Shown piece after piece: positions 15,631 through 37,310 of a stretch of 64,000 nucleotides of DNA. A program made the translations under genes and the position numbers. Under the pieces are notes generated by a model. That model searched no databases. It saw nothing but the letters and a program-made list of their open reading frames with translations, and was not told where the DNA came from. The first letter of the stretch is position 1. Every line of letters starts with the position of its first letter. The stretch covers positions 1-64,000 of the forward strand of contig NZ_WOTO01000024.1 in the NCBI RefSeq assembly GCF_010993775.1, read 5' to 3'. Source of the stretch: Fodinicola feengrottensis. GTDB lineage: Bacteria; Actinomycetota; Actinomycetes; Mycobacteriales; HKI-0501.

Positions 15631-16449
15631 ATGCGTACTCTCCGGACCGGGGCCGGGCTCGCGCTCGCTGGCCTGCTGCTCACGCTGGCCGCACCCGGCG
15701 CGGCCACCGCCGCGCCGCCCATCATCCCGCCGCCGTTCGGCGCCGAGCTTCCTGACTCGTACGGGCAAACGCCGCGGGTCAGCGGCAACCTTGGCCCGAT
15801 GCCGCAGCTGCCGCCAGCGCCACGGCCGGTGCCGTTCAGCGCGGCCGCCGGCGGTGAGTACGCGCAGACCGTCCTGCGAGTCCCGGTCAACGGGAACGTC
15901 GTTTTCATTACCATCGACGACGGCGGTTACCAGCCGCCGGAGGCGGCCCGGGTGCTCGAAGAGGCACACATTCCGACCTCGCTTTTCCTGATCTCGTCAC
16001 CGGCCGTGCAGCACGCCGATTTCTTTCGCAGCCTGCAGCCCGAAGGCGCCACCATCGAGGCGCACACCCAGTCACACCGCAAACTCAAAGGGTTGCCCGA
16101 GGACGTACAACGCTTCGAGATTTGTGGCTCGGTCGACAAACTCCAGGGCGTCGCCGGCCGCCGGCCGACCCTGTTCCGTCCGCCGTACGGCGAATATGAC
16201 CTGACCACGCTGAAAGTCATCCAGAGCTGCGGTGGCATCGCCGCCAACACCCTCTGGGAGGGTTCGGTCATCGGCGGCACGCTCTACATCGCGCAACACG
16301 CCTTCGGCCCGCACAATCCGCTCTATCCCGGGATGATCCTGCTGATGCACTTCACGCCCGACTTCGAGCGTGACATGCACGTGCTGCTGGCCGCGGTCGC
16401 CGCCTCTCCCGGGTTTTCCGTCGGACGCCTCGAAGATTACATCCACTAA
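15631..16449 (+). CDS. Secreted polysaccharide deacetylase (NodB/CE4 family)
   Basis: Intact 272 residues. A signal peptide ('[20 protein letters not shown]', cleaved near ATA-A) is followed by a proline-rich stretch and a CE4 domain. Motif 1 is 'FITIDDGG' with the catalytic and metal aspartates, motif 2 'HTQSH' gives the two metal histidines, motif 3 is 'RPPYGEYD', and the last histidine lies in 'LLMHF'. It removes N-acetyl (or O-acetyl) groups from a polysaccharide outside the membrane. Its position directly after the initiating transferase suggests modification of the EPS, as with poly-GlcNAc deacetylases; cell wall glycan is the alternative. Confidence 0.9.
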
Positions 16450-18152: not shown

Positions 18153-19342
18153 TCAGTCCTCCGTGCCGGTCGACGCGACCACGGCCGCCCGCAGCGGTGC
18201 GCGATGCGGGGCGCCGCGACGGCCGGACACCCGTGGTTGGCGGATGCCTCGGGCCAGCCGGTCGCACAGTTGCTCGTACTTCTCGGCCACCGCGTCCCAG
18301 TCGTAACGGTCCGCCCCGGCCCGGGATCCCCGGCCGCGCGACGCGGTGCCGTCCGGGTCCGCTTCGGCCTCGGTGATCTCGGTGGCCAGCGCGGTGGCGT
18401 CGGCGAAATAGCGGCCGGCCGAACCCAGCACCTCGCGGTTGAAGCGAACATCGAAAGCGATCGTCGGTGCGCCGGCGCCCATCGCGCGCAGCAGCGACGG
18501 ATTCGTACCGCCAACGGAATGGCCATGCAGGTATGTGTACGCGCCAGCGTAAAGCTGGTCGAGTTGTTCCTGGTCCCACACCGCGCCGAGGAACCGGACA
18601 CTGTCGTTGCCAGCGGCCAACTCCCGGATCCGCGCGGTGTGTTCCGCGCCATATGGCGCGGATCCAACCACCAGGAGCGGCCGTTTGGCGCCGGAGCGTA
18701 CATATCCGTCCACGGTCACGTCGACATGGTTTTCCGGCTCGAATCGGGCCACCACCAGGTGATAGCCACCGGGCTCGACTTCCAGTTCGGCCAGCTTGGC
18801 CGAGCCGATGCCGTCCAGAATCGGTGCGCCGTACGCGATGTAGTCCGAGCCGGCGCCGAACTCGTCCTGGTAGTACTCCTGAATGCCGATCGCGTCGGCG
18901 ATCAGGTCATCCGACCAGCGGACCGCCATCGCTTCGGCGGCCCGGTAGTAACGCCGGCCAGCGCGCCCCATTTCGCGCGTTTCCATTCCAGGCCGTCCAC
19001 GTGGGTGGCCACCGGAATGTGGCGCATCCGCAGCAGCGGCAAAAACAATGCGTTCGCTGCATTGAAAACAATGGCCGCGTCGACGCGTTGGGTCAGCAGG
19101 TGGGCGACCGACAACGCGGTGTGGCTGAGAGTTTCCAGCGCTTTGTGACGTACGGCTGGAAGATGCGTGAGCCGCATTCCGCGATAGCTGCTCAACCGGT
19201 CCGCGGGGTCGCCCGCACGCCGGGTGTAGACGAGAACATCGTGCCCGCGACCAGCCAACCGGGCGCCAACTTCTTCCACGCAGGTCTCAAAACCGCCGTA
19301 CCGGGCTGGCACCCCGCGGGTGCCGACCAGTGCTATCCGCAT
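18153..19342 (-). CDS. GT4-type glycosyltransferase with DUF1972 N-terminus (rhamnosyltransferase-like), one frameshift
   Basis: About 396 residues. The N-terminus 'IALVGTRGVPARYGGFETCV' is the DUF1972 motif found in rhamnosyl- and other GT4 transferases of EPS clusters. The C-terminal GT-B lobe has 'GYHLVVARFEPENHVD' (donor-binding strand), 'RFLGAVWDQEQLDQLYAGA' and 'HGHSVGGTNPSLLRAMGAGA', in which the glutamate of the usual E-x7-E motif is not obvious. It probably adds a sugar, plausibly rhamnose from RmlABCD, to the lipid-linked repeat unit. Frame change near 18975. First gene of the minus-strand operon; divergent from the O-antigen ligase gene. Confidence 0.85.
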
Positions 19343-19518: not shown

Positions 19519-20906
19519 ATGGCGACCGAAGGCACGCCGGCCCGGCGAGTGGTCGGCCGGGCCGCGGTCATCCGCACTGGTTTTCGCCTGCATCTGGTCC
19601 GTGACCAGGTCATTCAGCGCTGGGAACAGTGGGTTCCGGTGTGTTTGCTGGCGATGATCGTGGCCAGCGACTACAAAGTGCGCACCCGGTCGGTCGACGA
19701 TGCGGTGGGTGGTCAGGCAGATCCGTTTGTGTTACTGGAAATCGTCATATATCTGACAGTTGGGGCTTTTTGCGTTTTACGCTACGGCCGTCCGCCGCGC
19801 CCTCGCCGGGTCAGTCCGATGGTTTTCCTGCTGTACGCGTACGTAACTGTGATGGCCGTCTCAGCGCTTTATTCGCCGTACACGCAGCTCGCGCTCGTAC
19901 GCGCCGCGCAATTCGTCATTGTGTTGGTCGTCACTCGCTGTATTGCCAAACACGCCGGCCGTCGGGAGTTGCACAATTTCGCGCACGCCTTCCTCGTGCT
20001 GGTTGCCGGTTCTGTCGTCTTTGGTGCCATTATTCCGTTTCAACATGCCCAGCAGGAGGAAGGCCGGTTCAGCTGGCTGGCCATCCACCCGGTGACGGCC
20101 GGCATTTTTCTCGGCATCGCCACCATGATCGTGGTCGGCTATTTGTTGAGCCATCGCGGCGACCGGGAAGGGCCGCGCTGGCCGCTGAGTGTTTATCTCT
20201 TTTTTTGCTCGCGCTGGTCGGCGGCGGACTGATCGCGACCCAGACCCGCGCGCGCGGTGGTGGGTGCGGCGGCCGGTCTCGCGGTGCTCGGCTGGACGTT
20301 CTGGCGGGGCCGCCGCAAAATGGAGATCACCCTGGTGGCCGGGTTGGTGACCGGCCTGGTCGCGCTCGTCGCGGCGCCGGCGATCCTGGCCTTTTTCCAG
20401 CGCGGCGAATCGGTCGCCCGGCTGGAGACGCTGAATTCCCGTACCGACCTGTGGGCGCAGCGTGGGAGTTTTTTGTGCAAAAGCCCCTCTTTGGCTGGGG
20501 GCTGACCGCGACCCGCGGACTTTTCCTGCAGACCATTGGCCTTGGCGGCGGTCACAACGCGCTGGTGAATGTGCTGGTGGACGGCGGTTTGGTGGCCACG
20601 GTGGCCTGGGTGGGGCTGCTGGTGATGATGGTCTTCACGCTTTATCGCATTCGCCGGATTCCGCCCTCGATCGCCCCAGATAGGGCTATTCTGTTGGGAC
20701 TGGTCGCCTTCCTGGTGGTGGACGGCATGTTCGTGGAGAGCCTCGGGGCCGCCGCTAATGTCGCGAGCACCTGGCTTTTCGTGATGGTGGCCTGGACCGA
20801 ATTGCTGCGCGCAGACAGTGAACGGATCGCGCCTGTCGGACAGGCCGGCCCGCAGTCCCCCGCGGTGCCGATGACGCCCCGCCCGATGCCGGTGAGGCCG
20901 CGTTAA
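19519..20906 (+). CDS. O-antigen ligase/polymerase family membrane protein (Wzy-like), three frameshifts
   Basis: About 462 residues with ten or more hydrophobic helices. The Wzy_C region is recognisable: 'EEGRFSWLAIHPVTAGIFLG', 'LIATQTRA', and the large periplasmic-loop residues 'SRTDLWAQ', 'KPLFGWGLTATRGLF' and 'GGGHNALVNVLVDGG', where 'FGWG' and the H-N-x-x-L-N pattern are typical of the family. Such proteins polymerise repeat units or ligate glycans outside the membrane. Frames change near 20205 (T run), 20255 and 20465. The stop overlaps the next ATG (TAATG). A GGGAGG site precedes ATG 19519. Confidence 0.85.
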
Positions 20907-22052
20907 TGCGCAAAAGGGCAGTCCTGGTCGCAAATCCCTCCACCGATCTCTACGGCGCCCCCCGACAAAATGGCGATCGAAACCGTGGCCGCGCTGTGTG
21001 AGCGAGGCATCGAGGTCGTGGTGACCGTGCCGGCCGATGGGCCGTTAAGCGATCGGGTGAGAGAGCTTGGTGCGCGGGTTGTGGTGCTGCCGGTGCCGGT
21101 GCTGCGCCGCGGATATCTGTCCGCCGGCGGCATTTTGCGCATTCTGCGCGAGAGTGCGGTCGCGCTGCCGGCCTGCGTTCGGTTGGTACGCAAGGTCAAA
21201 CCAAGTGTCGTGTACGTGAACACCGTGACGATTCCGATTTGGGTGTTGGCTGGCCGGGTAGCCGGTCGCCCGGTGATCGGCCACGTGCACGAACTGGAAG
21301 CTGGCGTTGGCCGGTTGGTGAGACTCGGACTGACTGGTCCGTTGTGGGCGGCCCGCAAGGTGATCGCCAACAGCGCGGCCACCAAGGACTTCCTGTCCGC
21401 CGGCAGCCGCCGGCTGGCTCGCCGAACCGTGTTGATTTACAACGGGGTTCCAGGCCCGCCCCGGCCGCTGAAGGATCTTCCGGCCAGCCCCTCGACGCCG
21501 TTGGGGCTGCTGTATGTCGGCCGGCTGTCCGAGCGTAAAGGCACCGACGTCGCGATCGACGCGCTGAGTTTGCTTGTCGAGCGGGGGATTCCGGCCACCC
21601 TGGAGCTGGTGGGCTCGGTTTTTCCAGGGAACGAAGCATTCGAGGCCGCCCTACGCGATCGCGTACGCGACCGTGGCCTGTCTGATGCGGTGACTTTCGC
21701 TGGTTTCACCGACGATGTGTGGGGCGCGTACGAGCGAGCCGACATCGTGGTGGTGCCGTCCCGGCTGGAGCCGTTCGGACTGGTCGCGGTCGAGGCCCAA
21801 TTGGCCGTACGCCCGGTGGTCAGTTCCGACGCGCAAGGTCTGGTGGAGGCGGTGGCGGCCGGCGAAACCGGGCTGGTGGTGCCGGCCGGCGACCCGGCGG
21901 CGCTGGCCGACGCGGTGACCGGCCTGGTCAAGGACTGGCCGCGGGCCCGGGAAATGGCTCAACAAGGACAGGAAAGAGCGGTCCGACTCTTCTCGCCGGA
22001 CGGCTATCGCGCGGCTATCGCGGAGCTTCTGACGGAAGGACCTCAACGGTGA
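20906..22052 (+). CDS. GT4 family glycosyltransferase, one frameshift
   Basis: About 382 residues in the GT-B fold. The first codons 'RKRAVLVANPSTDLYGA' are a typical GT4 start, joined to 'MAIETVAALCERGIEVVVTV' after a shift in a C run near 20955. The C-terminal domain has 'GLLYVGRLSERKGTDVAIDA', 'VTFAGFTDDVWGAYERADIV' and the E-x7-E donor-binding motif in 'PSRLEPFGLVAVEAQ'. It extends the EPS repeat unit in the cytoplasm. It overlaps the upstream gene (TAATG) and the downstream propeller gene (GTGA), tying the secreted propeller protein to EPS synthesis by transcription and probably translation. Confidence 0.9.
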
Positions 22053-24419
22053 GACTCGGATATTTCGCCAGACACAGACCGAAAATGCTTGTCCTCGCGG
22101 TGGCCGCGGTGTTGGTCGCCGGCATCGGCGCGGCCGGGCCGGTGGCCGCCGACACCGCCCCGCCGGCCGGCACCCTGGAAACCGCGACCGCGGACCCGCA
22201 GCCGACCTGGCAGACCGACGGGATCGTGTGGGCGCTGGCACGGTCCGGCTCCACGGTTATCGCGGGCGGCGACTTCGGTTCGATCCGGCCGCCGGGCACC
22301 TCGGTGGGCGACTCCCATCAGCAGGTCCGGCACGGCGTCGCGGCTTTCGACATCGCGACCGGCAACCCGACCGCCTTCCAGCCGGACATCGGCGGAACGC
22401 CGTTCGCAGCGGCCAGCAATCCGTCTCCCGGCGAGTGCGACGCGGCCGGTACCGGCACGTACGTGTGCAAGGAAGTGTTGCGGGTCAAGACATCCCCGGA
22501 CGGCAAGACGATCTACCTGGGTGGCGACTTCGATCACGCCGAAGGGCAGGTGCGGCAGAAACTCGCCGCGTACGACCTCGCGACCGGTGCCTTGGTGACG
22601 AACCTCGCGCCAAGTATCAACAGTCGCGTACGCGCCATCGCGGTTTCCAACACGACTGTCTACATTGGTGGCGATTTCACCAGCGTCAACGGGCAGCCTC
22701 GGACCCGGCTGGCCGCTTTTGACCGCGCCACCGGTGCTTTGCTGCCGTGGGCCCCGACCGCCGATCACACGGTCTACACCATGGCGTTGAGTACAGACGG
22801 ATCGCACGTCATCGTCGGCGGCGTTTTCGACCACATCAACAGCACCACGATCAACGGCATCGCGACGGTGGACGCCACCTCCGGTGCGACGATGCCCTGG
22901 AGCAGCCGGCCGGTGCCGCCGCGGAACACCGCCGCCGACACGTATTCGACCGTCTGGGACCTGGTGGTGGACGGGAAAACACCGTCTACGCGGGCGCGAA
23001 CGGCCACGGTCCGAACATTTTCGACGGCCGCTTTGCCGCGGACGTGAACACCGGCAACCTGATCTGGAAAGACAACTGTTACGGCGCGACCTCGGCGATC
23101 GCGCTGATGAAGGGCGTTCTTTACAGCGCCTCGCACGCGCACGACTGCAGCGATTTGGGCGCTTTCGGGGAAGTGACCCCGCGCCGCTATCAGCGATTGC
23201 TGGCCGAGACCGCGGATTCCCACGGTGCGGCCAAACCGACGCTGCTGCATTGGTTCCCCACCGTGAATCCGGGCCCGCCGAACTCGTACTATCTGCAGGG
23301 ACCGTGGGCGATGGCCAACGATGACACCGATTTGTGGGTCGGCGGCGAGTTCACCACCGCGAACGGCCAGCCACAGCAGGGCCTCACTCGGTACGTTTAC
23401 AAGGCCACCGCGCCGGACGTCAACCCGCCGGAGCCGATGCTGGCGCCGATGGTGACCCCGCGCGGCACACGACTTCGTTGGGCGTCAACTGGCAGGCCAC
23501 CTGGGACCGGGACAACGCGAACCTGACCTATTCGCTTTACCGCGATGGTGGCAGCACGCCGATCTACACCGTCTCGGCGAACTCGAATTTCTGGACGCTG
23601 CCAGTGCTCAGATATGTGGACAATGGCCTCGCCGCCGGCAGTTCGCATACGTACACCGTGAAAGTCACCGATCCGTTCGGTAATTCGCGTACGTCACCAG
23701 CCTCGGCCGCGGTGGCCGGGTCGGTCAGCCCGCTGGGCAGGTACGGCGGTGCGGTCGCCGCGTCCGGGCCCAGTCCTTACTGGCAACTGAACGAAAAGAG
23801 TGGCACCACGGCGGCCGACGCGACCGGCTCCAAGACCGGCAGATTCGGCAGCGGGATCCAGCTGAACCAGTCCGGTGCGCCGGGAGTGCTGCCGAACGCG
23901 GCCATTCGTACGAACGGGACCTCGAACGGCATTCTGACCACCCCGTCCGCCGCTGCGGCACCCACCACGTACTCCATCGAGTTCTGGTTTGGTACGGCCT
24001 ATCCGACCGGTGGGAAACTGGTCGGTTTTGGGAACGCGGCCACCGGTAACAGCACCAACTACGACCGGCAGATATATATCAACAACGCTGGGAAACTGGT
24101 GTTCGGTGTGTGGAATAACGGGCCGCAGACCATCACGTCGCCGGGTTCGTACCAGAGTGGTGGATGGCATCACGTGGTGGCGACTCAGGGCGCGACCGGA
24201 ATGGCGCTCTACGTCGATGGTGCGCTGGTGGGGACCAACCCGACGACGACCGCGCAGGCCATTACCGGTTATTGGCGGCTGGGTGGCGACAATCTCGCGT
24301 ACTGGCCGGGCGTGCCGGCGAGCAACTGGTTCCACGGTGGCATTGACGATGTGGCCTTCTATCCGACCGCATTGACCGCACTTCAGGTCGGTACGCACTA
24401 CTCGGCCGGTAACAACTAG
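22049..24419 (+). CDS. Secreted beta-propeller protein A with Fn3 and LamG-like domains, two frameshifts
   Basis: About 790 residues. Signal peptide ('MLVLAVAAVLVAGIGAAGPV'), then about seven repeats of 45-65 residues built on 'VYIGGDFTSVNGQPRTRLAA' plus 'FDRATGALLPW', best read as a seven-bladed propeller (residues about 45-420). An Fn3-like domain follows ('WDRDNANLTYSLYRDGGSTP'). Unlike its three paralogues it ends in a LamG/concanavalin-like domain ('YSIEFWFGTAYPTGGKLVGF', 'GGWHHVVATQGATGMALYVD', 'GGIDDVAFYPTALT'), which binds glycans in many secreted proteins. Frames change near 22978 and 23465. GTG start overlaps the GT4 stop. Likely extracellular, acting on or binding the polymer; no catalytic motif was recognised. 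Confidence 0.8.
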
Positions 24420-24460
24420 TTCAGGCTAAAAGCAGCGCCGCTCCATTTTGGGGGGGCTGT

Positions 24461-25087
24461 TCACCGGCCGGCCACCGCCTCGGCGAGGGCCCGGAAGATC
24501 AGCGCGGTCGAAGTGGCGCCCGGGTCCTGGTGGCCGACACTGCGCTGGCCGAGATAGGACGCGCGGCCTTTGCGGGCGACCAGCGGCGCGGTCGCCCGCA
24601 TGCCTTTCTCGGCCGCTTCCGCTGCCCGCGAGGTGGCGCAAACGAGGTCGCCGCCGGCCGCCAGCTCATCTTCGAAGGCGGCCAGCGCCGGCGCGTACGC
24701 ATCGACGATCGTCTTGTCGCCGGGCGCCGCCGCGCCTAGCCGCTGGATCGCGGCGAGACCGTCGGTCAAGCCCACCAGCAGCTGTTTCGGGTCGGCGTTG
24801 GGGTCAGGGAGGGCCTTGCCGATGGCCCGGAAAGCGCTGCCGAACAGCGGTCCGGCGGCGCCGCCGACGCTGCTGATCAAGGTCATGCCGGTGGTCACGA
24901 GGAGGTCCCCGACCGTGGCCACCTCGCGGCCTTCGAGCGCGGCCACGACGGCGGCGAACCCGCGGTGCATATTCGCGCCGTGGTCGGCGTCGCCGATCGC
25001 CGAGTCGAGTTGGGTCAGCAGGTCGGTGTGCTCGTCGATGGCCGCGGCGATGCCGTGCACCCAGTCGCGCGTGGCGGCTACGTCCAT
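24461..25087 (-). CDS. dhaL: Dihydroxyacetone kinase L-subunit (DAK phosphatase domain)
   Basis: Intact 208 residues. 'DSAIGDADHGANMHRGF' carries the aspartates that hold Mg-nucleotide, 'SSVGGAAGPLFGSAFRAIGK' the helix-barrel core, and 'RKGRASYLGQRSVGHQDPGA' the C-terminal signature of DhaL. In the phosphotransferase-dependent system DhaL carries ADP/ATP and phosphorylates dihydroxyacetone bound to DhaK. No DhaK or DhaM is present in the window, so this is an orphan, either a partner of genes elsewhere or a relic. A GGAGGAG ribosome site precedes the ATG. It lies convergent to propeller gene A, inside the EPS island, and interrupts the propeller array. Confidence 0.88.
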   Translation of the reverse strand: MDVAATRDWVHGIAAAIDEHTDLLTQLDSAIGDADHGANMHRGFAAVVAALEGREVATVGDLLVTTGMTLISSVGGAAGPLFGSAFRAIGKALPDPNADPKQLLVGLTDGLAAIQRLGAAAPGDKTIVDAYAPALAAFEDELAAGGDLVCATSRAAEAAEKGMRATAPLVARKGRASYLGQRSVGHQDPGATSTALIFRALAEAVAGR

Positions 25088-25596
25088 CGTTTTCTCCTCC
25101 AGATAACACCGATTCCGACCAGCGTACGGGCGATCGCGATCCCGTCGCCGACCAATGCGGGCACGACCCCGCCGAAACCATGGATAGCTCTATCGATGGA
25201 TATGCCGATCGTACGATTAGCAGCGGCCAGGTGTCACCGCTGACCATCGCCGCAGAGGGTTGGACGCGCGAGAGGCCGTCCGGGCGCTCGCGGACACCTT
25301 CGACGCGCTGCCGACTGACAGGGCACTCTTTTCTGACTAGAAGGACGAGTCTGGCCGGAAGGACGAGTCGAGCCGTAAGGTGCCATTAGTTTTTTGACGA
25401 GAATGATGGCGTAATGTCCGGTTGTCGGTCAGGGTTTCTTTTGCTGCCGCCGTTTTGTTTGCCGCGAACATCGTTCGTACCGCCGGCCACCGTATTTCGG
25501 CCGGTCGAGCGGCGCTACATTGTGCTTCGACCGATCGCTTTCGAGCAGCCCGACGGCGCGCTGCTGGCAGGTCCTGGACAGCAAAGGTGCTGCGCA
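25088..25596. other. Intergenic region between dhaL and propeller gene B, with possible gene remnants
   Basis: 509 bases. On the minus strand a short frame (about 25190-25078) reads 'GFGGVVPALVGDGIAIA' then 'RTLVGIGVIWRRKR' and runs into the dhaL start; it could be a relic of an upstream partner such as dhaK or a membrane protein tail. On the plus strand 'LDAREAVRALADTFDALPTD' plus 'RALFSD' ends at a TAG near 25341 and has coding-like codon use but no beginning. AAGGACGAGTC occurs twice at about 25341-25368. From 25380 the DNA turns AT-richer and leads to gene B. Confidence 0.3.
25529..25542 (+). promoter_or_regulatory. Leader motif shared by propeller genes B and C (copy 1)
   Basis: GACCGATCGCTTTC lies 68 bases before the ATG of gene B and is identical to 27473-27486, which lies 66 bases before the ATG of gene C. 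A TAnnnT box (TACATT) sits 7 bases upstream, so the motif may mark the transcript start region. Confidence 0.4.
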
Positions 25597-27247
25597 ATGT
25601 CAGGTGCCCGAAAGCGGCTCTGGAAGCCACTGGCCGTCGCCGCCGGCTCGATCGCCGTGGTGACCGTCGCGTCCGTGCTCGCCACCGCCTGGGGCGACAC
25701 CTCGCCCAAGGCTGGCACGCCGGAAACCGTCACCGCCGATCCACTGTCGACCTGGCAGACCGATGGCATCGTGTGGAGTTTGGCGCAGGCCGGCTCGACG
25801 GTTTTCGCCGGCGGCAATTTCGACTTCGTACGACCGCCCGGCACCACGCCTGGCGACTACGCTCAGCTCAGCCGTAGCAATCTCGCCGCTTTCGATGTGG
25901 CGACTGGAAAACCGACCACCTTCGCGCACGCGGTGACCGGCACGGCTTACGTCTCCAACCGGCTCGGAATGCCAGACGATCGGCACCGACGAATACCTCT
26001 GTGACGCGGTCTTTCGGGCCAAGACCTCGCCAGACGGCAAGGCGCTCTATATCGGTGGCGATTTCACCCACGTGGATGGCCAGGCCCGCAGCCGGCTCGC
26101 CGGTTTCGACCTGACCACCGGAAAGCTCGACGCCAAGATGAGCGCGCTGGTGAACAACCGGATCCGCGGCATCGCGGTTTCGGCCACCACGGTCTACATC
26201 GGTGGTGACTTCACCACGGTTAACGGGCAGCCGCGTACGAGGCTGGCCGCGCTCGACCGGGCCACCGGCGCGTTGTTGCCGTGGGCGCCGACCGCGACCG
26301 ACACCGTACGGGCGCTGGCCCTGTCCGCCGACGGCGGCCGGGTCATCGTCGGCGGCGATTTCGCAAAACTCAATGGCAGCAACGAAAACAGCGTTGGCGC
26401 GGTGAGTGCGACCGGCACCGGCGCGCTGACGCAGTGGAACAGTCGGCCGGGCCGGCGCCGTCCGGCAGCAAATACTCCGGGGTGACAGACCTGGTGGTGG
26501 CCGGCTCGACCGTCTACGGCGGAGCGCACGGCGAGGGTGGCGGCGTTTTCGACGGCCGGTTCGCGGTCGACACGAATACCGGCAACACCCTGTGGACGGA
26601 CACGTGTCTTGGCGCCACCACAGCGATTGCGGTGCAGGGCAGTGTTGTCTACAGCGGATCGCATGGGCACGACTGCAGCTCGATGGGTGGCTGGCCGCAG
26701 ACGAATCCGTCGACTTATCAGCGGCTGGTAGCCGAAACCGCCGGCAGTGGCAGCAAGAGCACGCTGCTGCACTGGTTCCCGTATGTCAACTACGGCCCGG
26801 AAACCTCGTATTACAAGCAGGGTCCGTGGGCACTGGTCGCGGACAGCAACTACCTGTGGGTCGGCGGTGAATTCACCAGGGCCGGCGACGCCGATCAGCA
26901 GGGCCTCACCCGGTTCGCGACCAAGAGCGTGGCGCCGGACACCAACCCGCCCGGAAACGCCGTTCGCAGCCGCCACCGTCGGCGCGGTCGGCAGCACCGC
27001 GCTGAAGGTCACCTGGAAGGCTACCTGGGACCGGGATAACGCGGACCTGACCTATCAGGTCTTCCGTGACAACGGCACGACCCCGATCTACACGACGACG
27101 GCAACGTCCAACTTCTGGACCCTGCCGACGCTGACTTTCACCGACTCGGGCCTGGCCGCCGGAAGTTCTCACTACTACCGGGTAAAAGTGAGCGATCCGT
27201 ATCACAACACCCGATCAAACCCCAATTCCGTCACGGTGCCGGCATAG
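25597..27247 (+). CDS. Secreted beta-propeller/Fn3 protein B, three frameshifts
   Basis: About 550 residues, paralogous to its neighbours. Signal peptide or anchor 'LAVAAGSIAVVTVASVLATA', then the propeller: first blade 'DPLSTWQTDGIVWSLAQAGS' and 'TVFAGGNFDFVRPPG', later blades 'TTVYIGGDFTTVNGQPRTRL' and 'SADGGRVIVGGDFAKLNGSN', and the conserved Cys/His segment 'SGSHGHDCSSMGGWPQTNP'. Ends in an Fn3-like domain ('WDRDNADLTYQVFRDNGTTP', 'GSSHYYRVKVSDPY') with no LamG. Frames change near 25970, 26445 and 26950. It has its own leader, and a strong terminator follows, so it may be a single-gene transcript. Confidence 0.8.
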
Positions 27248-27277
27248 CCATCAGCAAGTAAAAAAGAATCTTCCGTA

Positions 27278-27320
27278 CGCTCCGGGAGTTGCCCTTAGGG
27301 GCGGCTCCCGGAGCGTTTTT
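27278..27320 (+). terminator. Rho-independent terminator after propeller gene B
   Basis: Stem CGCTCCGGGAG / CTCCCGGAGCG (27278-27288 with 27305-27315) with a 16-base loop, followed by TTTTT. It ends 73 bases after the gene B stop and separates it from gene C. Confidence 0.88.
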
Positions 27321-27472
27321 GTGCCCGTTTTGCTGGCTGTTGCGGGGATTTTCGGCACTTCATTAACGCGCACAATTGGCCGTCGAAAGAGTCATAAAGA
27401 ATAGCGGTCCGGCTATCTGGAGTGGACGAACAGACTATTCGCGCCATGGTGGGAAAGAGTTAGCGTGGCGCG

Positions 27473-27486
27473 GACCGATCGCTTTC
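27473..27486 (+). promoter_or_regulatory. Leader motif shared by propeller genes B and C (copy 2)
   Basis: GACCGATCGCTTTC, identical to 25529-25542 and at nearly the same distance (66 bases) from the start codon. TAGCGT lies 6 bases upstream as a possible -10 box. Confidence 0.4.
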
Positions 27487-27538
27487 CGTGAGCGGCTCTT
27501 TCGCTGCCGTCGCGGGCCCTTTCCAGCAAGGACCACAG

Positions 27539-29253
27539 ATGCCAGCTGCGTTATCGTCGCCCGCGTCCCCGTCACCAAAGGCCAGGTTCCGACGAGGTCT
27601 GATCGTCGCGGCTGGCGCTGCCCTGACCTTGATCGCCAGCCTCGCGCTGGCGCCGCTCGCGCACGCGGACACCGCGCCGCCGGCCGGTACGCCCGAGACG
27701 GTCACCGCCGACAACCTGCCGACCTGGCAGACCAACGGCATTGTCTGGAGCCTCACCCAGAGCGGCGGAACGGTTTACGCCGGTGGGAATTTCGACCACA
27801 TTCGCCCGCCCGGCACGGCTGACGGCGATCCCAGCCAGCTGACCAGGTCCAACCTCGCGGCCTTCAATGTGGCCACTGGGCAACCGACCGGTTTCGACCA
27901 CGCGGTGACCGGCACGGCGTATAGCTCGACCACCAACCCGGGCCCCGAATGACTCGGTGGGCACCAACGAATGGCTCTGCCAGGCAATTTTCCGGGTCAA
28001 GGCGGCGCCGGACGGCAGCGCGCTGTATTTCGGCGGCGATTTCACCCACGTCGACGGCGAGCCGCGCAGCCGGCTGGCCGGTGTCAGTCTTTCCACCGGG
28101 CAGCTGGACCCGGCGATGACCCCGGACATCAACGGGCGGGTGCGAGGAATCGCCGTCTCGGCGACGACCGTCTACATTGGCGGCGATTTCACCCAGGTGG
28201 ACGGACAAACCAGGACTCGGCTGGCCGCGTTGGACCGGGCCACCGGAGCGTTGCTGCCGTGGGCACCGGCCGCGGATGACACCGTGCGTACGCTCGCGCT
28301 CAGCTCGGACGGCAGCCGGGTCATCGTCGGTGGAGACTTCCCGCATCTCAATGGCAGCAACGAAAACGCGATCGGCGCGGTGGACGCCAGCACTGGCGCA
28401 CTGACCACCTGGAACAGCCGGCCGATCCAGTCGCCCAACGGCAGCCAGTTCTCTGGCGTGACCGAGCTGGTCGTCGTCGGACCGACGGTTTTCGGTGGCG
28501 CACACGGTGAAGGCGGCGGTGTTTTCGACGGCCGGTTCGCGGTGGACACCAACACTGGTACGACCCAATGGAAAGACACCTGCCTGGGCGCCACCACGAC
28601 GATCGCGGTGCAAGGCGGCATTGTCTACAGCGGCTCCCATGCGCATGACTGCAGCTCGATGGGTGGCTGGTCGCAGACCAACCCGGCGACCTACCAGCGG
28701 CTGCTGGCCGAGACCGCGGATTCCGGCGGTGCCTCGAAAAACAAGCTGCTGCACTGGTTTCCCCTCGGTGAACACCGGCCCGGCGGACTCGTACTACAAA
28801 CAGGGCCCGTGGGCGATGGCCAACGACGACACGTATTTGTGGGTCGCCGGCGAATTCACCAAGGTCGGCGGCGTCGACCAGCAGGGCTTGACCCGGTTCG
28901 CGCCCAAGAGCGTGGCACCGGACATCAACCCGCCCGAAGCGCCCTTCGCCGCGCCGGTCGCCACCAATGCCAGCAAAACCTCGCTGAAGGTCAGCTGGGA
29001 CGCGACCTGGGACCGGGACAACACGGCCACCACGTACCAGCTTTTCCGAGACGACGGAACCACGCCGATCTACACCACGACGGTGAACACGAATTTCTGG
29101 ACGCTGCCCACGCTTTCCTTCACGGACACGGGTCTGGTCACCGGCAGCTCGCACTACTACCGGGTGAAGGTCGCGGATCCGTTCAACAACAAGCGTTCCT
29201 CGCCGTACGGCGACGCGGTAACCGTCAAATGCCCGTGGTTCATCTGCTTGTAA
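27539..29253 (+). CDS. Secreted beta-propeller/Fn3 protein C, two frameshifts
   Basis: About 571 residues. ATG 27539 has AAGGA 9 bases ahead, so it is preferred over the upstream GTG 27488. Signal peptide 'LIVAAGAALTLIASLALAPL' with a clear A-x-A site. Blades include 'NLPTWQTNGIVWSLTQSGGT', 'VGTNEWLCQAIFRVKAAPDG', 'TTVYIGGDFTQVDGQTRTRL', 'SSDGSRVIVGGDFPHLNGSN' and 'SGSHAHDCSSMGGWSQTNP'. The Fn3-like end ('FRDDGTTPIYTTTVNTNFWT') stops at 'CPWFICL', adding two cysteines absent from B and D. Frames change near 27948 and 28765. Gene D follows after 42 bases, so C and D form a pair. Confidence 0.8.
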
Positions 29254-29295
29254 GCGCACAGGCCGCGGCTTGTCAACAATAGGAAGTGATTCCCA

Positions 29296-30962
29296 GTGTC
29301 CTGGAAATTTCGTGCCCTGACAGCCGCGGTCGCGCTGTCGGCCGGTCTCGCGCTGGCGGTGCCGGCTGCGGTGCCGGCCAATGCCGACACCGCGCCACCG
29401 GCCGGCACCCCGGCCACCGTGACCGCCGATCCGCTGTCGACGTGGCAGACGGACGGCATCTGGGTCTGGGCGCTGGCACGGTCCGGGTCGACCGTTTTTT
29501 CGCCGGCGGGAACTTCAACGATATCCGGCCGCCGGGCGCGGCGGCCGGCGCGTCCAGCCAGCAGTCCCGGTCGAACCTGGCCGCGTTTGACATCGCTTCC
29601 GGCGCGCCGACCACCTTCAATCACCCGGTGACCGGAACGGCGTACACGTCGACGACCAACCCCGGCCCGGAATGCGACTCGGTGGGTACGAACAAGTGGC
29701 TCTGCGACGCGATTTTCGGCGTCGCGGCGGCGCCGGACGGCAAAGCCGTCTACTTCGGTGGCGATTTCACCGCGGTGGACGGGCATGCCCGCAGCCGGTT
29801 CGCCGGCATCAACCTGAGCACCGGCGCGCTGGAGCCGATTTCGGCGACCATCAACAGTCGCGTACGAGCAGTCGCCGTCTCGGCGACGACGGTCTACATC
29901 GGCGGCAACTTCACCACCGTCAACGGCCAGCCGCGGACTCGGCTGGCCGCCTTCGACCGGGCCACCGGCGCTTTGCTGCCGTGGAACCCGTCGACGGACA
30001 ACACCGTTCGTACGATGGCGCTCAGCACCGACGGCAGTCGGGTCATCGTCGGCGGCGACTTCGACCATCTCAACGGCAGCAACGAAAACAGCATCGGCGC
30101 GGTCAGCTCCACTGGCACCGGCGCGCTCACCCCATGGAGCACCCCCCGCGGCCGATCCCGCCGCGCAACGGCACCCAGTATTCCGGTGTCACCGATGTGG
30201 TCGTGGTCGGTCCGACGGTTTTCGCCGGCGCGCATGGTGAAGGCGGCGGAGTTTTCGACGGTCGGCTGGCGGTCGACACGGCCACCGGAAAGCTGTTATG
30301 GAAGGACACCTGCCTCGGCGCCACGACGACGATCGCGGTGCAGAACGGCGTTGTCTACAGTGGATCGCACGCGCATGACTGCAGTTCGATGGGCGGTTGG
30401 GGACAGACCAACCCGGCGACGTACCAGCGGTTGCTGGCCGAGACCGCGGATTCCGGCGGCGCCTCGAAAAACCAGCTGCTGCACTGGTTCCCGCAGATCA
30501 ACTACGGCCCGACCAGCTCGTATTACAAGCAGGGCCCGTGGTCGATGGCGAACGACGACAAATATCTCTGGGTGGGCGGCGAGTTCACTCAGGTCGGGGG
30601 GGGTCGCGCAGCAGGGCCTGACGCATTTCGCGACGACCGCGGTGAAGCCGGACATCAACGCGCCGGAGGTGCCGTTCGCGGCCCCCACGGTGGCCACCGC
30701 TGGCAGCAAGACGCTGAAGGTGACCTGGAAGACCACGTGGGACCGCGACAACGCGAAACTCACGTACGAGGTGATCCGCGACAACGGGTCGACGCCGGTT
30801 TACACCACCACCGCGTCGACGAATTTCTGGACGCTGCCATCGCTGTCGTTCACCGACACCGGCCTCGCCAGCGGCAGTTCGCATTACTACCGGATCAGGG
30901 TCTCCGATCCGTACGGGAACGCCCGCTCCTCACCGAACTCCACAGCAGTGGTCGCCAGTTGA
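29296..30962 (+). CDS. Secreted beta-propeller/Fn3 protein D, three frameshifts
   Basis: About 555 residues. GTG 29296 has AGGAAG upstream. Signal peptide 'ALTAAVALSAGLALAVPAAV'. The propeller repeats match B and C closely ('FAGGNFNDIRPPGAAAGASS', 'VGTNKWLCDAIFGVAAAPDG', 'TTVYIGGNFTTVNGQPRTRL', 'STDGSRVIVGGDFDHLNGSN', 'SGSHAHDCSSMGGWGQTNP'), then an Fn3-like domain. The cysteines 'GPECDSV..WLC' and 'KDTC..HDC' are conserved in C and D and probably form disulfides. Frames change near 29500, 30145 and 30598 (a run of G). The next gene, an FkbM methyltransferase, starts 14 bases on, so C-D-FkbM look like one transcript. Confidence 0.8.
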
Positions 30963-30976: not shown

Positions 30977-31936
30977 ATGACACTGCCATTAAGTACGCGG
31001 CTCCGGGTACGGGCTCGACAGGGCCTGTCGCGGGGCCTTCGTGCGGTGCCACCGGGAGTGGTCGCACAGGTGCACCGGCGGTTCGCTGGATCCTCCGGCG
31101 TCCAGCAGCGGTTGTGGGCGCCGGCGGTTTCGCTGCTGCGGCACCGGCCGTTGGCGCCGATGCGCGACTTCGCGCTTCCCGACAACCCGGGGCTGCGGCT
31201 CACCGCGGTCGAGTCGCGGCTGGCCCGATTGCTTTACTGGTACGGGGAATCCGGCTATGAGGGCTGCGAAACGTTGTGGTGGCGGCGATTGTGTGAGCGG
31301 GCCACCGGGATCCTGGAGCTCGGCGCCAATATCGGTTACTACACCGTGCAGGGCGCGGCGGCCGCGCCGGACGCGAAATATGTGGCGGTGGAGGCGAATC
31401 CGGAGTCGGCGGACATCGTACGGGCGAACGTACGGCTGAATGCACTACGGAATGTGGACATCGTGCAGGCCGCCGTGGTGGGTGACGACGCTCCGGAAAC
31501 GATGGAGCTTTCGCTGCCGGACCAGGAACAGTATTCGGCGCCTACTGGGGCTTATCTGTCGGCCGGAAACGAGGGCGTCGGCAACCGGCCGTCCACTCGT
31601 GCGGTCACGGTCCCGACCGTCCGCATGTCGTCCCTTGTGGACGGTGTGGACCTGCTGAAGCTGGACATCGAGGGCTATGAGGCCCAGGTGCTGGAGTCGG
31701 TACGGTCGAGGATCGCCGAGACCCGCCCCACGATCGTGGTGGAGGTGCTGAAAAAGGTGCCGCGGCTGCGAGCAGTGATCAGCGACCTGCACGCCACCGG
31801 ATATCTGGTTTTCGCTATTGGCGACGACTCGCTGCACCTGCTGACCGCCGACGAGCTGGCCAACCCGGCGCCCCTTCCGCGCTATGGCAGCCGCGATGTG
31901 GTGCTCGTACCAGCCGAACGCGCGAAAGAACTTTAG
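30977..31936 (+). CDS. FkbM family methyltransferase
   Basis: Intact 319 residues. The SAM-binding domain begins at about residue 110 with motif I 'ILELGANIGYYTVQGAAAA', continues 'YVAVEANPESADIVRANVRL' and reaches 'GVDLLKLDIEGYEAQVLESV' and 'RPTIVVEVLKK', the FkbM signature. The first 100 residues are basic and unlike other families I know. Members put O-methyl groups on sugars or polyketides. Within this island methylation of an EPS sugar is the best reading. It follows propeller gene D by 14 bases and overlaps the convergent beta-helix gene by 4 bases. Confidence 0.9.
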   Translation: MTLPLSTRLRVRARQGLSRGLRAVPPGVVAQVHRRFAGSSGVQQRLWAPAVSLLRHRPLAPMRDFALPDNPGLRLTAVESRLARLLYWYGESGYEGCETLWWRRLCERATGILELGANIGYYTVQGAAAAPDAKYVAVEANPESADIVRANVRLNALRNVDIVQAAVVGDDAPETMELSLPDQEQYSAPTGAYLSAGNEGVGNRPSTRAVTVPTVRMSSLVDGVDLLKLDIEGYEAQVLESVRSRIAETRPTIVVEVLKKVPRLRAVISDLHATGYLVFAIGDDSLHLLTADELANPAPLPRYGSRDVVLVPAERAKEL

Positions 31937-33801
31937 TCGACGCCCGGCCCGACCCAGAGCACCGCGAGCTGGGCTGGCCGTCGTCGTCAGGCCAAGCGCG
32001 GATGCCACCTCGGACGGCAGTGGCTGACCGCCGTGCGCGGCCGGGGAACTGGGTTGTGGGCGGAAATTCAGCGCGCCCGGATTGACGAAGACATCGCCCG
32101 GCCCACCGGTCAGTTCCTGGCCGTGTGCCTCCAAGCCGGTGGCCTGTCGCCATTGCGCCAGCGATCCGTACGCGTCCACATCGGACGGTGAATTCCACCA
32201 GGAAACCAGCACGCTGGGAAGGTGGGCGTTGGCGCGTACGTAACAACCGCCGTCACTGGCCACGATCATCTGGGCGGCACTGGTCCGCGGTGGGTTCTTG
32301 TAGTCCGCGGTGATCACGAACGGCTGGTCGGAATCCACGTCACCGACCATCAAGTTGTTCAGCAGCCGGGTGTTGCGGCTGTCCCAGACCTGGCCCATGC
32401 CGTTGGAGTACGGGTCGCTGTCCGGTCCGCGCGGATCGTTGTAGACGCCGAGGTTGCTCTGGTTGCCGACCATCGTGTTGTTGACCACCCGAACGTTGTC
32501 CGAGCTGGAGATTTTCAGGCCCAGCTTGGCATTGCCCGCCATCACGTTGGACGCGACCAAGGCCCGTGCGGAAATCTCGTAGAACAGGCCGTTGACCTGG
32601 TTGCCGCTCGCGAGGTTCCCGATCACCACCGCGTCGCTGCAGCCCAGGTCGCACCACCAGCCGTTGGAGTGGTTGTCCCGAAAGATGTTCCTGGCGATGT
32701 ACGGCCGTTTGGTACGGGTGATCTTGGTGCCGGCGGCCCCCACCGAATCACCGGAGATGGCGAAATGCTCGGCGTTGTTGCCGACCATGGTGTTGCCGAC
32801 GATCCTGATGTTGTCGGCTTTGTTGGCGACGATGCCGGCGAGGCCGTTGCGGTCGAAGAGGCTGCTACTGATGGTCGCGTCCGGCTGCGCGATCAGCAGC
32901 CCGGTGGCGGCGGAGCCGAGGAAAACATCCTTTTCGAAAGTGACCTTCCGAGCATTGACCGAGACCATCGCCGGATGGTCTTTGTAGTCCTGGTTGGACG
33001 CGAAAGAACGGAATCCGACGCCCCGGATGACCGCGCCGGCGGCGCCGGAGTCCAGCACCGCGAACTGGGTGCGTACGGCCGATTCCACCGTCTTGCCGGC
33101 TGGCGAGGTGCCGACGTACAGGACATGGCGGCTTTGGTCGACGAAGAACGTGCCGGCCTGCACCTTGTCGCGGCTGCCGACCTGGCGCAATGGCTGGCCG
33201 TTTATCAGCACCATGTCAGGGAAACCGGCCTGCGGGTAGGCCGGATCGATGATGTTCGGCAGGAAACAGCTGTGGCACAGCTGGACATCCCAGTTGTCGT
33301 GCCGCCAGGTCGACCCGTCGGCGACCCAGCCGGTGACCACGTCGGCGCCGGATATCCACGCCTGCTCGCCCGGATACGGCTGCAGGATGAACGGTTTTCC
33401 CAGCCCGTCCACGGATTCCCGGTAGACGCCGGCGCGGAGCACCACGGTGCGCCGGAGGGCACCCGGTCCAGGGCGGCGCCGACCGTACGCAGGGGGGTGT
33501 CCTTGCCGCCGTCCGCGCTGTCATTCCCGGCGGGGGAGACGTAGAGGCTGCCCGGTGGGATCGGGTAGTCGGTGGTCGGAATCGCTACCGGAACAGTGTT
33601 CGCACGGTCCGCCCGGGAGGTGTCCACTCCCGGCGGCTCCGAGCTCTCCGAACTCATCGCCCGGGGCAGGTCGACCAGCAGGAGCCGGCCGCCGACCACA
33701 ATGGTGACCGCGCCGACCAGCACCACCACGGCCCATACCGCCAACCGCCGACGCCAGTGGGCGTCCGGTGGCGCGTCTCTTTGGACCGGTCTGGAGGGCA
33801 T
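31933..33801 (-). CDS. Membrane-anchored right-handed parallel beta-helix protein, two frameshifts
   Basis: About 623 residues. One membrane segment near residues 22-43 ('VWAVVVLVGAVTIVVGG') acts as anchor or uncleaved signal. The extracellular part starts 'SLYVSPAGNDSADGGKDTPL' with 'RTVGAALDRVPSGA', the usual entry of pectate-lyase-like beta-helices, followed by Asn-rich rungs such as 'DNIRIVGNTMVGNNAEHF' and 'SDNVRVVNNTMVGNQSNLGV'. This fold is used by polysaccharide lyases, epimerases and glycan-binding proteins; no catalytic set can be assigned. Frames change near 33450 and 31975; the corrected end reads 'AVLWVGPGVD'. Possible EPS lyase or epimerase. Confidence 0.8.
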
Positions 33802-34057: not shown

Positions 34058-35578
34058 ATGGATGAGCGCTCCGCGCCGGGCATCCTGGAGGCGTTCTGGC
34101 GCTACCGGGCGACCTCGGCCGCGATCGTGCTGCTGGCGGTGGCGCTGAGCGTCGGCGTGACTTTCGTGCTGAAAGGGCAGGCCACCGCTAAGGCGGTGAT
34201 GACGCTGTCGACCCCCGGCCCGGACAACGTCATTGGCGTGAACATCAACAGCGAGGCCGCTTTCGTCCGGTATGTGAAGCAGCGCGCGATCTACGTGACC
34301 TCGGACAAGGTGCTGCAGCAGGCCGCGAAGTCGCTCGGCGACACCAGCGTGGCGGACCTTCGTACGAGCGTGACCGCGACCGCCAGCGACACCGGCGAGG
34401 ACATCGCGGTGACCGCCACCGCGCTGAGCGCGACGACCGCGGCGCGGAACGCGCGAACGCCGTGGTGAAGGCGTATCAGGACGAGACCCAGGCAGACGTC
34501 ACGGACGCGACCACGTCCGCGCTGGCCGCGATCTCGGCCGCTCGGTCCAAAGTGGTGTCGCAGCTGTCTGGCGGCGACGCCGGCACCCCCAAGACGGCGA
34601 CCAGCAGCATCGACAAGGCCGACCAGAGCTCGGCCACCCAGACGCTGTCCGCGCTCGACGTGCAGGCCAGCCACATCCGGCTCTGGTCCACGCTGTTCAA
34701 CAACGGCGTCTCGCTGGTGAACCCGGCGAGCGCGGACAGTGCGGCCGGCGGCGGCCTGCCGTACAAGGAGGCGGGCATCGGCTTGCTGCTTGGCCTGCTG
34801 CTGGCCGGCGCACTCGCCTGGCTGCGGGCCGACCGGGACCGGCGGGCCCGGGCCGCCGAGGACGCCGGCGAGATCATCGGCGCGCCGCTGCTCGGCGAGG
34901 TTCCCGAGGTCACCCGCGCGGAGGCGGTCACCCTCGACCACGTGGCGAACATGCCGTCCGAGAGCTACCAGCTGGTCGCGTCCGGCCTGCAGGCCACCAT
35001 GGGCGGCGGGGGTTCTGCTGGTCACCGGCGCGACCCGCGGCGAGGGGCGTACGACCACCGCCCTGCACCTCGCGGCCGCGGCGGCTCGCGATGGCGCGCG
35101 CGTACTGATCGTCGACGGCGACATCCGGGTGCAGCGGCTGTCCGAGTTGTTCGGGCTGGCCCGGGAGGCCCGCGGGCTGACCGCACTGGCCGCCCAGCAC
35201 GCGACCGTCGACGAATGCACGTATTCGGTGGACCTCGGCGGCGACAACGCGCTGTGGCTGATGCCGGCCGGTGCCGCTGTCGGCAACGTGCCGGGCGTCT
35301 TCGGGTCGGCCGCGATGGCCAAGGCGCTGGTGGAGATGCGGACCAAGTACGACATGGTCATCGTCGACTCGTCGCCGCTGGTCAGCTCCCCGGACGCGGC
35401 CGCGATGGCCCGGCACTGCGGGGCCGCCCTGGTGGTCACCCGGCGGGGTACGACGCTCGGCCCGCTCCGCCGGCTGGTGCAGCAGCTTGACCTCTACTCG
35501 GTGACGGTCGTCGGTCACGTCTTCACCTTCAGCGGCACGTCCCGGCCGGCTCGCCGCGCCGCCGCGCCGCAGGCGTGA
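34058..35578 (+). CDS. Polysaccharide co-polymerase fused to BY-kinase-like ATPase (Wzc/CapAB type), two frameshifts
   Basis: About 507 residues. N-terminal Wzz part: helix 1 'SAAIVLLAVALSVGVTFVL', an extracytoplasmic segment, helix 2 'AGIGLLLGLLLAGALAWL'. The C-terminal ATPase has 'LLVTGATRGEGRTTTALHLA' in the Walker A place, 'RVLIVDGDIRVQRLSELFG' as Walker A', and 'YDMVIVDSSPL' as Walker B. Two oddities: the P-loop lysine is arginine (GEGRTT), and the tail 'GTSRPARRAAAPQA' lacks the tyrosine cluster of bacterial tyrosine kinases. It probably sets EPS chain length; kinase activity is doubtful. Frames change near 34447 and 35010. Its stop overlaps the flippase GTG (GTGA). Confidence 0.85.
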
Positions 35579-36866
35579 GCCCACCGGGCCGCGGGCTGCT
35601 GGCCCGGCGGGCCAGCTCGGCGCTGGTCTCGCAGGGGATCACCGCGTTCGCGAGCCTGGTGTTGCAGCTGGTCGCGGCACGTACGCTCGGCGCCGCCGGC
35701 CTCGGTTTGTACGCGCTGTGCGTCTCGGTGTTGATCACCGCGACCGCGCTCTACACCGGCTGGGTCGGCGACAGCGTGACCGTGTTGGACCGCTTCGAAC
35801 CCCAGATCCGGGCGGCGATTTCGGTCAGCGTGATCATCGGCGCCGCCGGCGGATTCCTGGCCGGGCTGGCATATCTGCTGTTCTTTGGCGGCGGCACGTT
35901 GTCGGCCGCTTTCCTGCTGGGTGTCCTCATCACTTGTTGGCTGCTGGAGAGGAGACCGGCCGGCGGACGCTGATGGCGCGGCAGGAATTCGGCAAGCTGG
36001 TCGCGAACGACGGCACGTACTTCGCCGTCACGCTGCTGGCGTTGGCCGTCGGCTGGCTGCTCGGCGTGCCCTGGTCGCTGACCGAGCTGCTCGGCGCGAT
36101 GACCGTCGGCGCGGTCGCCGCCATCTTGTTGGCTGTCATTCAGTTGCCCCGTGCGGAACTGTCCGCGCTCCGACCGGGTTTCGCCGGCCTGCGTACGGTG
36201 GCCGCCTTCGCCGCCTGGCGATCCGGGCAGGCCACCATGCGACCGGCGACGTTGCTGGTGGCGCGGCTGATGGTGCAGATTTTCGGCTCGCTGGCCGCGG
36301 TCGGCGCGATGGAAGCCGCGCGGCTGCTGTTGGCGCCCGCGCAGACGGTCATCAGCGGCGCCGGCAGCTTCCTGCTGTCCACGTTCGTGTCCGCCGAAAA
36401 GTCCGGCGAGCGCGGCCGTACCCAGAAGAAGCTGGCGAACCGTGCGGTCTGGGCGCTGGTGGTGGCGGTGGTGATCATGGTCGGCGTGGTGGCGGCTGCG
36501 CTGCGCGGCCCACTCGGGTGGCTGGTCACCGGCGGGAAGTACGAGCTGTCCGCGATCGCGGTCGTCGGCTGGGCCGTCTACCTGGCCACCTGGGCGGCGA
36601 CCCTGCCGTATGTCACGGAGATCGTCGCCCGGCAGCGTTCGCGCGATGTTTTCGTCGTAAGGCTGGTGGACTCGGTCCTGGGCGTGGTCGCCACGCTCGT
36701 TGTGCTGGCCGCGGGGCTCGGATATCCGTGGGTGCCGTGGGGGATGTCGGTCGGCGGCCTGGTGGCGGCGGTGTGGCTGCGTCAGATCGCGGTGCGTACG
36801 CGACCCGACGCCCGCATCGGCGGCCGCCACCGGATGAGCCGCCGGCGTACCGGCGTCGCCGCCTGA
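35575..36866 (+). CDS. Oligosaccharide flippase (Wzx/MATE-like), one frameshift
   Basis: About 430 residues with 11-12 hydrophobic helices. The N-terminus 'LVSQGITAFASLVLQLVAAR' followed by 'TLGAAGLGLYALCVSVLITA' is the usual first part of polysaccharide flippases, and the segment 'AAWRSGQATMRPATLLVARL' near the middle is the expected domain boundary. It moves the undecaprenyl-linked repeat unit to the outer face of the membrane. The frame changes near 35950. GTG start overlaps the co-polymerase stop, giving a Wzz-Wzx pair. A polar, Arg-rich tail ends the protein. Confidence 0.85.
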
Positions 36867-36899
36867 CCCAGCGTTCGCGCCGGGCCAGGCGGGAATCGC

Positions 36900-37310
36900 T
36901 CAGGCCCGGCGGGCGTCCATGCTGAAGGTCAGCACGTTGCCGGACCCGGTCTCGGTCTCGGTCTGCCCGTAAAGCACTCCGGTGCCGCCATTGGTGTAAG
37001 CGCAACCGACCGTGCCGCTGGCCCGGCCGTTGCCATCGAGCTGCAGAACGTTGGGGGAAGTGGCGGTGTGGCAGATGGTCGCGCCGTTGACCGAGAGCTC
37101 GGCGTAGACCAGGGCTCCGGCCGGGCCACTGACGTCGTAGTCCAGGTAGTAGTTCCCAGCCGAGACCGGACTGGACAGGGACTGGCAGTGGTCGGACTGC
37201 GCGGTGGTGTGGCAGACCGCGCTGAACGCGGGTTGGGCTGTGGTGGCTGAGGCCGCGGACGGCACGGCCAGGAGTACCAGCGCGCCGGCGACCGCTGCTA
37301 TTTTCCTCAC
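36900..37310 (-). CDS. Small secreted protein, second of a tandem pair
   Basis: About 136 residues. Signal peptide 'KIAAVAGALVLLAVPSAASA' from GTG 37310. The mature part has 'AVCHTTAQSDHCQSLSSPVS', 'GNYYLDYDVSGPAGALVYAE' and 'LDGNGRASGTVGCAYTNGGT', with four cysteines that could form two disulfides. I do not recognise a family. It is homologous to the gene before it: the GNYYLDYD block, the cysteine spacing and the 'ASGT.GC' segment align. The GTG overlaps the upstream stop (GTGA), so the two are translated together. They lie between the Wzx gene and rmlC and may be matrix or surface proteins. Confidence 0.6.
   Translation of the reverse strand: MRKIAAVAGALVLLAVPSAASATTAQPAFSAVCHTTAQSDHCQSLSSPVSAGNYYLDYDVSGPAGALVYAELSVNGATICHTATSPNVLQLDGNGRASGTVGCAYTNGGTGVLYGQTETETGSGNVLTFSMDARRA

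Follow-up and report, generated by a model that had tools for sequence, protein, structure and literature searches.

A tandem array of four predicted secreted propeller/Fn3 proteins in an exopolysaccharide locus of Fodinicola feengrottensis

The array and its four propeller genes

The window analysed here comprises the first 64,000 nucleotides of contig NZ_WOTO01000024.1 of the soil-type actinobacterium Fodinicola feengrottensis (assembly GCF_010993775.1), and at positions 22049-30962 it harbours four paralogous genes, A to D, in tandem within a locus for Wzx/Wzy-type exopolysaccharide (EPS) synthesis. Taken by itself the array is not a new kind of system; a widespread and apparently uncharacterised family of EPS-locus proteins has expanded here in one lineage. 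The same four paralogues were recovered by a search of the whole genome, and after frame correction the seven repeats and the Fn3-like domain that the initial annotation had read from the sequence were found in place, with a signal peptide visible by sequence reading in each copy:

22049..24419, plus strand: copy A, signal peptide, seven-repeat propeller, Fn3 and Laminin_G_3; three frames, with breaks near 22978 and 23467
25597..27247, plus strand: copy B, signal peptide, propeller and Fn3, frame-broken
27539..29253, plus strand: copy C, signal peptide, propeller and Fn3, frame-broken
29296..30962, plus strand: copy D, signal peptide, propeller and Fn3, frame-broken

None of the four has a single open frame, each being readable via three or four joined in-phase stretches; in the frame-corrected proteins, B, C and D share 71-73% pairwise identity among themselves and 59-61% with A. 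These frameshifts were checked by aligning reliable proteins from a sister genome of the same genus (G001) to the window. The essential genes glmU (11156-12591) and prs (12651-13630) each change frame in the window, and so do the genes for the priming transferase and for Wzz. Given that glmU and prs suffer the same breaks and that marker-gene completeness is 74.6% for the window's genome versus 100% for the sister, the frameshifts in A to D are attributed to assembly or sequencing errors rather than to the family itself; on the same grounds, programmed frameshifting and pseudogene decay were rejected as their explanation in the window. With frameshifts occurring across the whole window, any broken gene of this assembly should first be suspected of being a sequencing error.

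With respect to the domain anatomy, the seven propeller repeats of copy C read VYAGGNF, LYFGGDFT, VYIGGDFT, VIVGGDFP, VFGGAHGEGGGVF, VYSGSHAHDC and LWVAGEFT. The conserved Cys/His segment, at first listed as an element of its own, turns out to be repeat 6 of the propeller (the b-c loop of blade 6) and no separate module. A single predicted Fn3 domain follows the propeller in each copy (at about 23469-23702 in A). The copies had been described as alike, but A alone among the four carries in addition a C-terminal, lectin-like Laminin_G_3 (LamG) domain at about 23916-24389 (Pfam score 77.5 bits versus a cut-off of 27.6, E = 1.6e-21). The Pfam model DUF5122 (PF17164, cut-off 27) scores above its cut-off in both copy A (33.2 bits) and copy C (41.2 bits), and Rax2 (PF12768, cut-off 28.8) scores above it in A (36.1 bits) and below it in C (25.5 bits). 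Both models cover the propeller in part, the HxHxC blade and the EPS context lying outside both; Rax2 is a fungal cortical protein, and DUF5122 comes with no stated function. The Fn3 score in copy C (16.6 bits) is under the cut-off of 25; the AlphaFold2 model of a homologue places a confident beta-sandwich there, and the family profile matches Fn3-type domains of known structure.

The frame-broken copies of the window not being foldable whole, the fold was modelled on an intact Planobispora homologue (L001:9926-11584, 553 amino acids), which is 45-49% identical to the window rows; the input was a 52-row alignment that included pieces from the window. The resulting AlphaFold2 model (predicted local distance difference test, pLDDT, 89; predicted template modelling score 0.88) has seven strand groups, i.e., seven blades by strand order, and a beta-sandwich at residues 464-543. 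Among solved structures it comes closest to seven-bladed WD40 propellers (e.g., Cdc20, WDR5 and a Thermomonospora WD40 domain), with template modelling scores by target of at most 0.75; a search of viral structures with the propeller gave generic propeller matches only. Window copy A stays in frame over its Fn3-LamG part, for which the model reached a pLDDT of 79, and the LamG domain of this model matches glycan-binding jelly rolls such as domain 4 of the arabinanase AbnA, the lectin domains of sialidases, and pentraxin. Members of the family also bear LamG, CBM96 (carbohydrate-binding module family) and PKD domains; no catalytic domain was found among the members scanned, and no cell-wall anchor or membrane segment was seen at the C-termini. 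The models thus support the view of A to D and their relatives as secreted seven-bladed propeller/Fn3 proteins, and the propeller fold proposed at the outset stands.

Four further features bear on how the array may be transcribed:

20970..22052, plus strand: glycosyltransferase group 1 (Pfam PF00534, E = 1.9e-35)
24461..25087, minus strand: dhaL (DAK2 domain), between A and B, outside the system (Pfam PF02734, E = 2e-50)
27277..27316, plus strand: intrinsic terminator between B and C, 18-bp stem and T run (-53.7 kcal/mol for 101 nt, fold z -6.8)
30977..31936, plus strand: FkbM methyltransferase (Pfam PF05050, E = 8.5e-15)

The proposal that expression of the array is tied to EPS synthesis holds in part. 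A 4-bp overlap (GTGA) does exist between the stop codon of the glycosyltransferase gene and the start of copy A, in the sister genome as well, and C, D and the FkbM gene are closely spaced, the stop of D lying 14 bp upstream of the latter. However, since dhaL on the opposite strand (between A and B) and the terminator, the strongest of the stretch (between B and C), split the array, its copies do not form a single expression unit, and a continuous four-gene operon is ruled out. The FkbM gene is missing at the corresponding place of the sister genome and had no tblastn match in 79 homologous loci; its linkage to D is lineage-specific, and FkbM was rejected as a functional partner of D in general.

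Distribution of the family and history of the copies

One genome scan returned 204 stretches with relatives of the propeller genes, of which 79 loci, all from Actinomycetota, were fetched and the 71 loci of at least 14 kb were counted, neighbouring genes being classed by clustering and seed searches. Wzy-like genes are present in 59 of these 71 loci, GT4 glycosyltransferases in 54, priming transferases in 52, Wzx in 40 and Wzz in 32; among the nucleotide-sugar genes, the GDP-mannose dehydratase type was found in 48 and the GDP-fucose synthase type in 45. At least one of Wzx, Wzy, Wzz or priming transferase accompanies the propeller in 64 of the 71 loci, and any EPS gene in 67. In a second test of this linkage, separate searches for the family and for Bac_transf, the domain of the priming transferase, covered 41 related genomes. 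In 13 of the 14 genomes with a strong family member the two lie no more than 22 kb apart, against a chance expectation of 0.39; this limit was chosen after the distances had been seen, and 12 of the 14 genomes are within 15 kb. Moreover, a cassette of glycosyltransferase, Wzy, propeller, beta-helix and Wzx genes is conserved into Streptosporangiales. The link between the homologues and polysaccharide loci that had been anticipated for the array is therefore strong and general, and the propeller is probably a widespread, unstudied protein partner of the sugar coat across many actinobacteria.

Copy number is a different matter. A single copy is present in 50 of the 71 loci, two in 20 and three in one, so that tandem copies occur in 21, eight tandem pairs overlapping by exactly 4 bp. 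With one copy in most homologous loci and two in the sister species, the idea of an EPS system built around such an array is not supported. The copies may, as was suggested, tune valency. Besides A to D, the sole further match in the genome is weak and distant and lies on the same contig, 50 kb on. It is a frame-broken Rax2-type propeller gene (L110:16532-18545, corresponding to C26:80532-82545) adjoining a gene for a membrane protein that resembles an O-antigen polymerase, which suggests that the EPS linkage extends to remoter propellers too.

The sister species has two copies where the window has four. Its copy A is an intact frame of 778 amino acids, to which window copy A is 71-81% identical, and its second, D-type copy is out of frame and about one repeat short, and could be either a true pseudogene or the product of a local error. 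In the stretch from A to the next copy, the sister carries an open reading frame named SecDF-like from its sequence in place of dhaL, marking a variable spot within the EPS island. In a tree of 57 propellers, the four copies of the window and the two of the sister form one clade (100/99), within which A pairs with sister A (100/100), D with the second sister copy (100/96), and B with C (96/90). From these pairings it follows that one duplication is older than the split of both species, and the line leading to B and C was either gained in the window's species or lost in the sister. On the proposed history, an old duplication before the genus split would have separated A from the B/C/D type, and later duplication would have given rise to B, C and D. 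Elsewhere, tandem copies have independent origins: the two propellers of one Blastococcus locus cluster with each other in the tree, and in Actinomadura both propeller types fall within one clade of that genus. Streptosporangiaceae have two types, of about 550 and 1400 amino acids, which are old and distinct.

Proposed role and rival explanations

Seven residues, Q54, R79, C336, H355, H357, C359 and W397 (L001 numbering), do not vary among the 50 sequences that cover them in the family alignment (A2), although most of these sequences are only 35-50% identical to the reference, and copies B to D retain the conserved residues. They sit in or beside d-a or b-c loops of blades 6, 7 and 1 and, as judged from the topology (strand order) and not from measured distances, would share one face of the propeller. 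C336 and C359 perhaps form a disulfide that fixes the loops, and the histidines may be structural.

We consider the chances about even that A to D are secreted EPS-binding matrix or anchoring proteins of the surrounding Wzx/Wzy-type locus. The seven-bladed propeller would then bind either the polymer or some conserved portion of it via the conserved face of blades 6, 7 and 1, and the Fn3 domain, together with LamG in copy A, would bind a second glycan or chain. The protein would thereby crosslink the polymer or retain it at the cell surface, as RbmC and Bap1 of Vibrio cholerae bind Vibrio polysaccharide (VPS). The long, lectin-bearing A might be the bridging form, and the bare propeller/Fn3 proteins B to D simple polymer binders; this division of labour between the copies is, like bridging itself, what we infer.

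Several observations weigh against such a role. The face is invariant in 50 of 50 sequences though the loci make different polymers, the sugar-precursor genes differing by lineage (rml here, the GDP-fucose type in Streptomyces, and sulfotransferases in Streptosporangiales), and a binder alone, facing a variable polymer, need not show such invariance. Also, two genomes (G018 and G032) hold family members far from any priming transferase. Because the precursor genes vary while the seven residues never change, a catalytic role and a constant surface ligand are kept as serious rivals.

As to the former, the propeller might be an extracellular enzyme of the lyase or transferase type that trims, cleaves or transfers the EPS, the invariant Gln/Arg/His/His/Trp face being its active site. 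Seven-bladed propeller lyases exist, the constancy of the seven residues and their placement by strand order in loops of one face would suit an active site, and the appended Fn3, CBM96 and LamG domains are the usual carbohydrate-binding accessory modules of such enzymes. However, homology to a propeller enzyme was sought in Pfam, NCBIfam, a PDB sequence search and the top fold matches, and nothing came out above cut-off, the NCBIfam match to quinohemoprotein amine dehydrogenase being weak and below it. In addition, the cysteines and histidines may serve the structure, as said above, and the right-handed beta-helix protein of the locus is a better enzyme candidate, so that catalysis by the propeller appears unlikely. 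It is likewise doubtful, though conceivable, that the family is a general part of EPS assembly in actinobacteria that has so far been missed, in which case the invariant His/Arg/Gln/Trp face would act on a step common to many Wzx/Wzy-type EPS (e.g., extracellular attachment or processing of the polymer) and not as a polymer-specific lectin.

Recognition of a constant surface acceptor such as peptidoglycan, teichoic acid, a membrane lipid or the secretion machinery, in place of the polymer itself, by which the EPS would be retained or Wzx/Wzy/Wzz assembly aided from outside, would fit an invariant site beside varying sugar-precursor genes, and the propeller genes are indeed interleaved with glycosyltransferase and Wzy genes and overlap a glycosyltransferase stop. 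Yet with C-termini that show no visible cell-wall anchor or membrane segment, and with LamG and CBM96 pointing to glycan ligands, we rate this as quite improbable. Finally, that the array consists of partly decaying duplicates, of which one or two function and the others are redundant or pseudogenes, is very improbable: the assembly shows frame breaks in all four copies, the D-type copy of the sister is out of frame and short, and copy number is unequal between both species, but the essential glmU and prs of the window suffer from the same kind of breaks, sister copy A is intact, and B to D retain the conserved residues.

For the reading of A to D as EPS-binding matrix proteins, V. cholerae offers a precedent. 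The initial annotation had known of no comparable EPS system; this is too strong insofar as the EPS loci of V. cholerae encode matrix propeller and FnIII proteins (PMC10102183), and it stands insofar as no homology to these was detected. The propeller common to RbmC and Bap1 is a direct VPS binder, the rbmC gene is situated between the VPS clusters, and RbmA binds VPS through FnIII domains (PMC10102183), while Bap1 causes VPS clumping (PMC11695861). Like RbmC and Bap1, the present proteins are secreted and multi-domain, combine a beta-propeller with predicted sugar-binding domains, are encoded in a polysaccharide locus and have paralogues that arose by duplication; RbmA uses FnIII domains, and an Fn3 domain is predicted in the present proteins. 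In contrast to the eight blades and beta-prism lectins of RbmC and Bap1, they have seven blades with Fn3 and LamG, and polymer binding, demonstrated for RbmC and Bap1, is inferred for the present proteins. As blade number differs and there is neither a match in the PDB sequence search nor one among the 50 top fold matches, homology to RbmC and Bap1 was rejected and membership is not claimed; that the family works like them is a plausible analogy.

Amongst actinobacteria, the wps, gsf and imp clusters of Actinoplanes missouriensis are likewise EPS loci of the Wzx/Wzy type and are required for the sporangium matrix, and the main text describing them mentions no propeller, LamG or fibronectin-type protein (PMC13390465). 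The Ebosin (ste) cluster of Streptomyces sp. 139, with a priming transferase and a fucosyltransferase, was compared by its function list, which contains no matrix or propeller protein (PMC11078827). A functional study of the propeller family, held to be uncharacterised from the beginning, was not found in the literature searched, most subscription papers lying outside its coverage. As far as this literature shows, the size and consistency of the family in actinobacterial EPS loci, the invariant blade-6 segment, the repeated tandem duplication and the four-copy case are new, whereas the domains, the ordinary fold and the precedent for an EPS-binding propeller are already known. Little is known of how actinobacteria retain EPS on hyphae, spores and sporangia, and the cluster studies compared mention no matrix protein. 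A large majority of the homologous EPS loci that were sampled, from Streptomyces, Streptosporangiaceae, Actinomadura and the window's genus, contain the family. It offers a direct handle on this retention, and the two copies in the sister versus four in the window constitute a natural change in copy number that is useful for asking about matrix properties.

The surrounding exopolysaccharide locus

On both sides of the array lie the genes of the EPS locus proper:

14188..15577, plus strand: priming glycosylphosphotransferase (Bac_transf), one frame break (Pfam PF02397, E = 7e-66; sister ortholog 80-84%)
15631..16449, plus strand: secreted polysaccharide deacetylase, NodB type (Pfam PF01522, E = 2.6e-23)
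18153..19342, minus strand: glycosyltransferase, frame-broken (tblastn, 55-65% identity, ten loci)
19519..20870, plus strand: Wzy-like polymerase/ligase, frame-broken (tblastn to Wzy-type proteins, nine loci; the counterpart in locus L008 has Pfam Wzy_C)
31939..33699, minus strand: right-handed beta-helix protein, NosD-like (Pfam PF13229, E = 2.3e-20)
34058..35542, plus strand: Wzz/chain-length type protein, frame-broken (tblastn with the sister protein, 73-89%; named by Wzz-type resemblance)
35718..36925, plus strand: Wzx-type flippase (tblastn, 36-45% to Wzx-type proteins, eight loci)
37849..41474: dTDP-L-rhamnose genes, rmlC-like and rmlA on the minus strand, rmlB and rmlD on the plus strand (Pfam NTP_transferase, GDP_Man_Dehyd/Epimerase and RmlD_sub_bind; rmlC by sequence reading)

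The glycosyltransferase at 18153-19342 is conserved in EPS loci of Streptosporangiales and in Blastococcus, and a Pfam scan of the Wzz-type protein gave no match. The beta-helix protein, a possible EPS-modifying enzyme, adjoins propeller genes in eight Streptosporangiales loci and in Herbidospora lies between both propeller genes; it should figure in any description of the propeller/EPS system.

Further downstream, a second priming transferase is encoded at 45386-46225. Near it, at 51750-53583 on the plus strand, are found a CBM96 protein and then, in another frame, a glycoside hydrolase candidate that by eye is possibly GH26-like. The EPS region is also adjoined by PAPS_reduct (CysD-like) and GTP_EFTU (CysN-like) genes (49285-51555, plus strand), which might serve as a source for sulfation of the polymer; sulfotransferase-like proteins are encoded in seven homologous loci.

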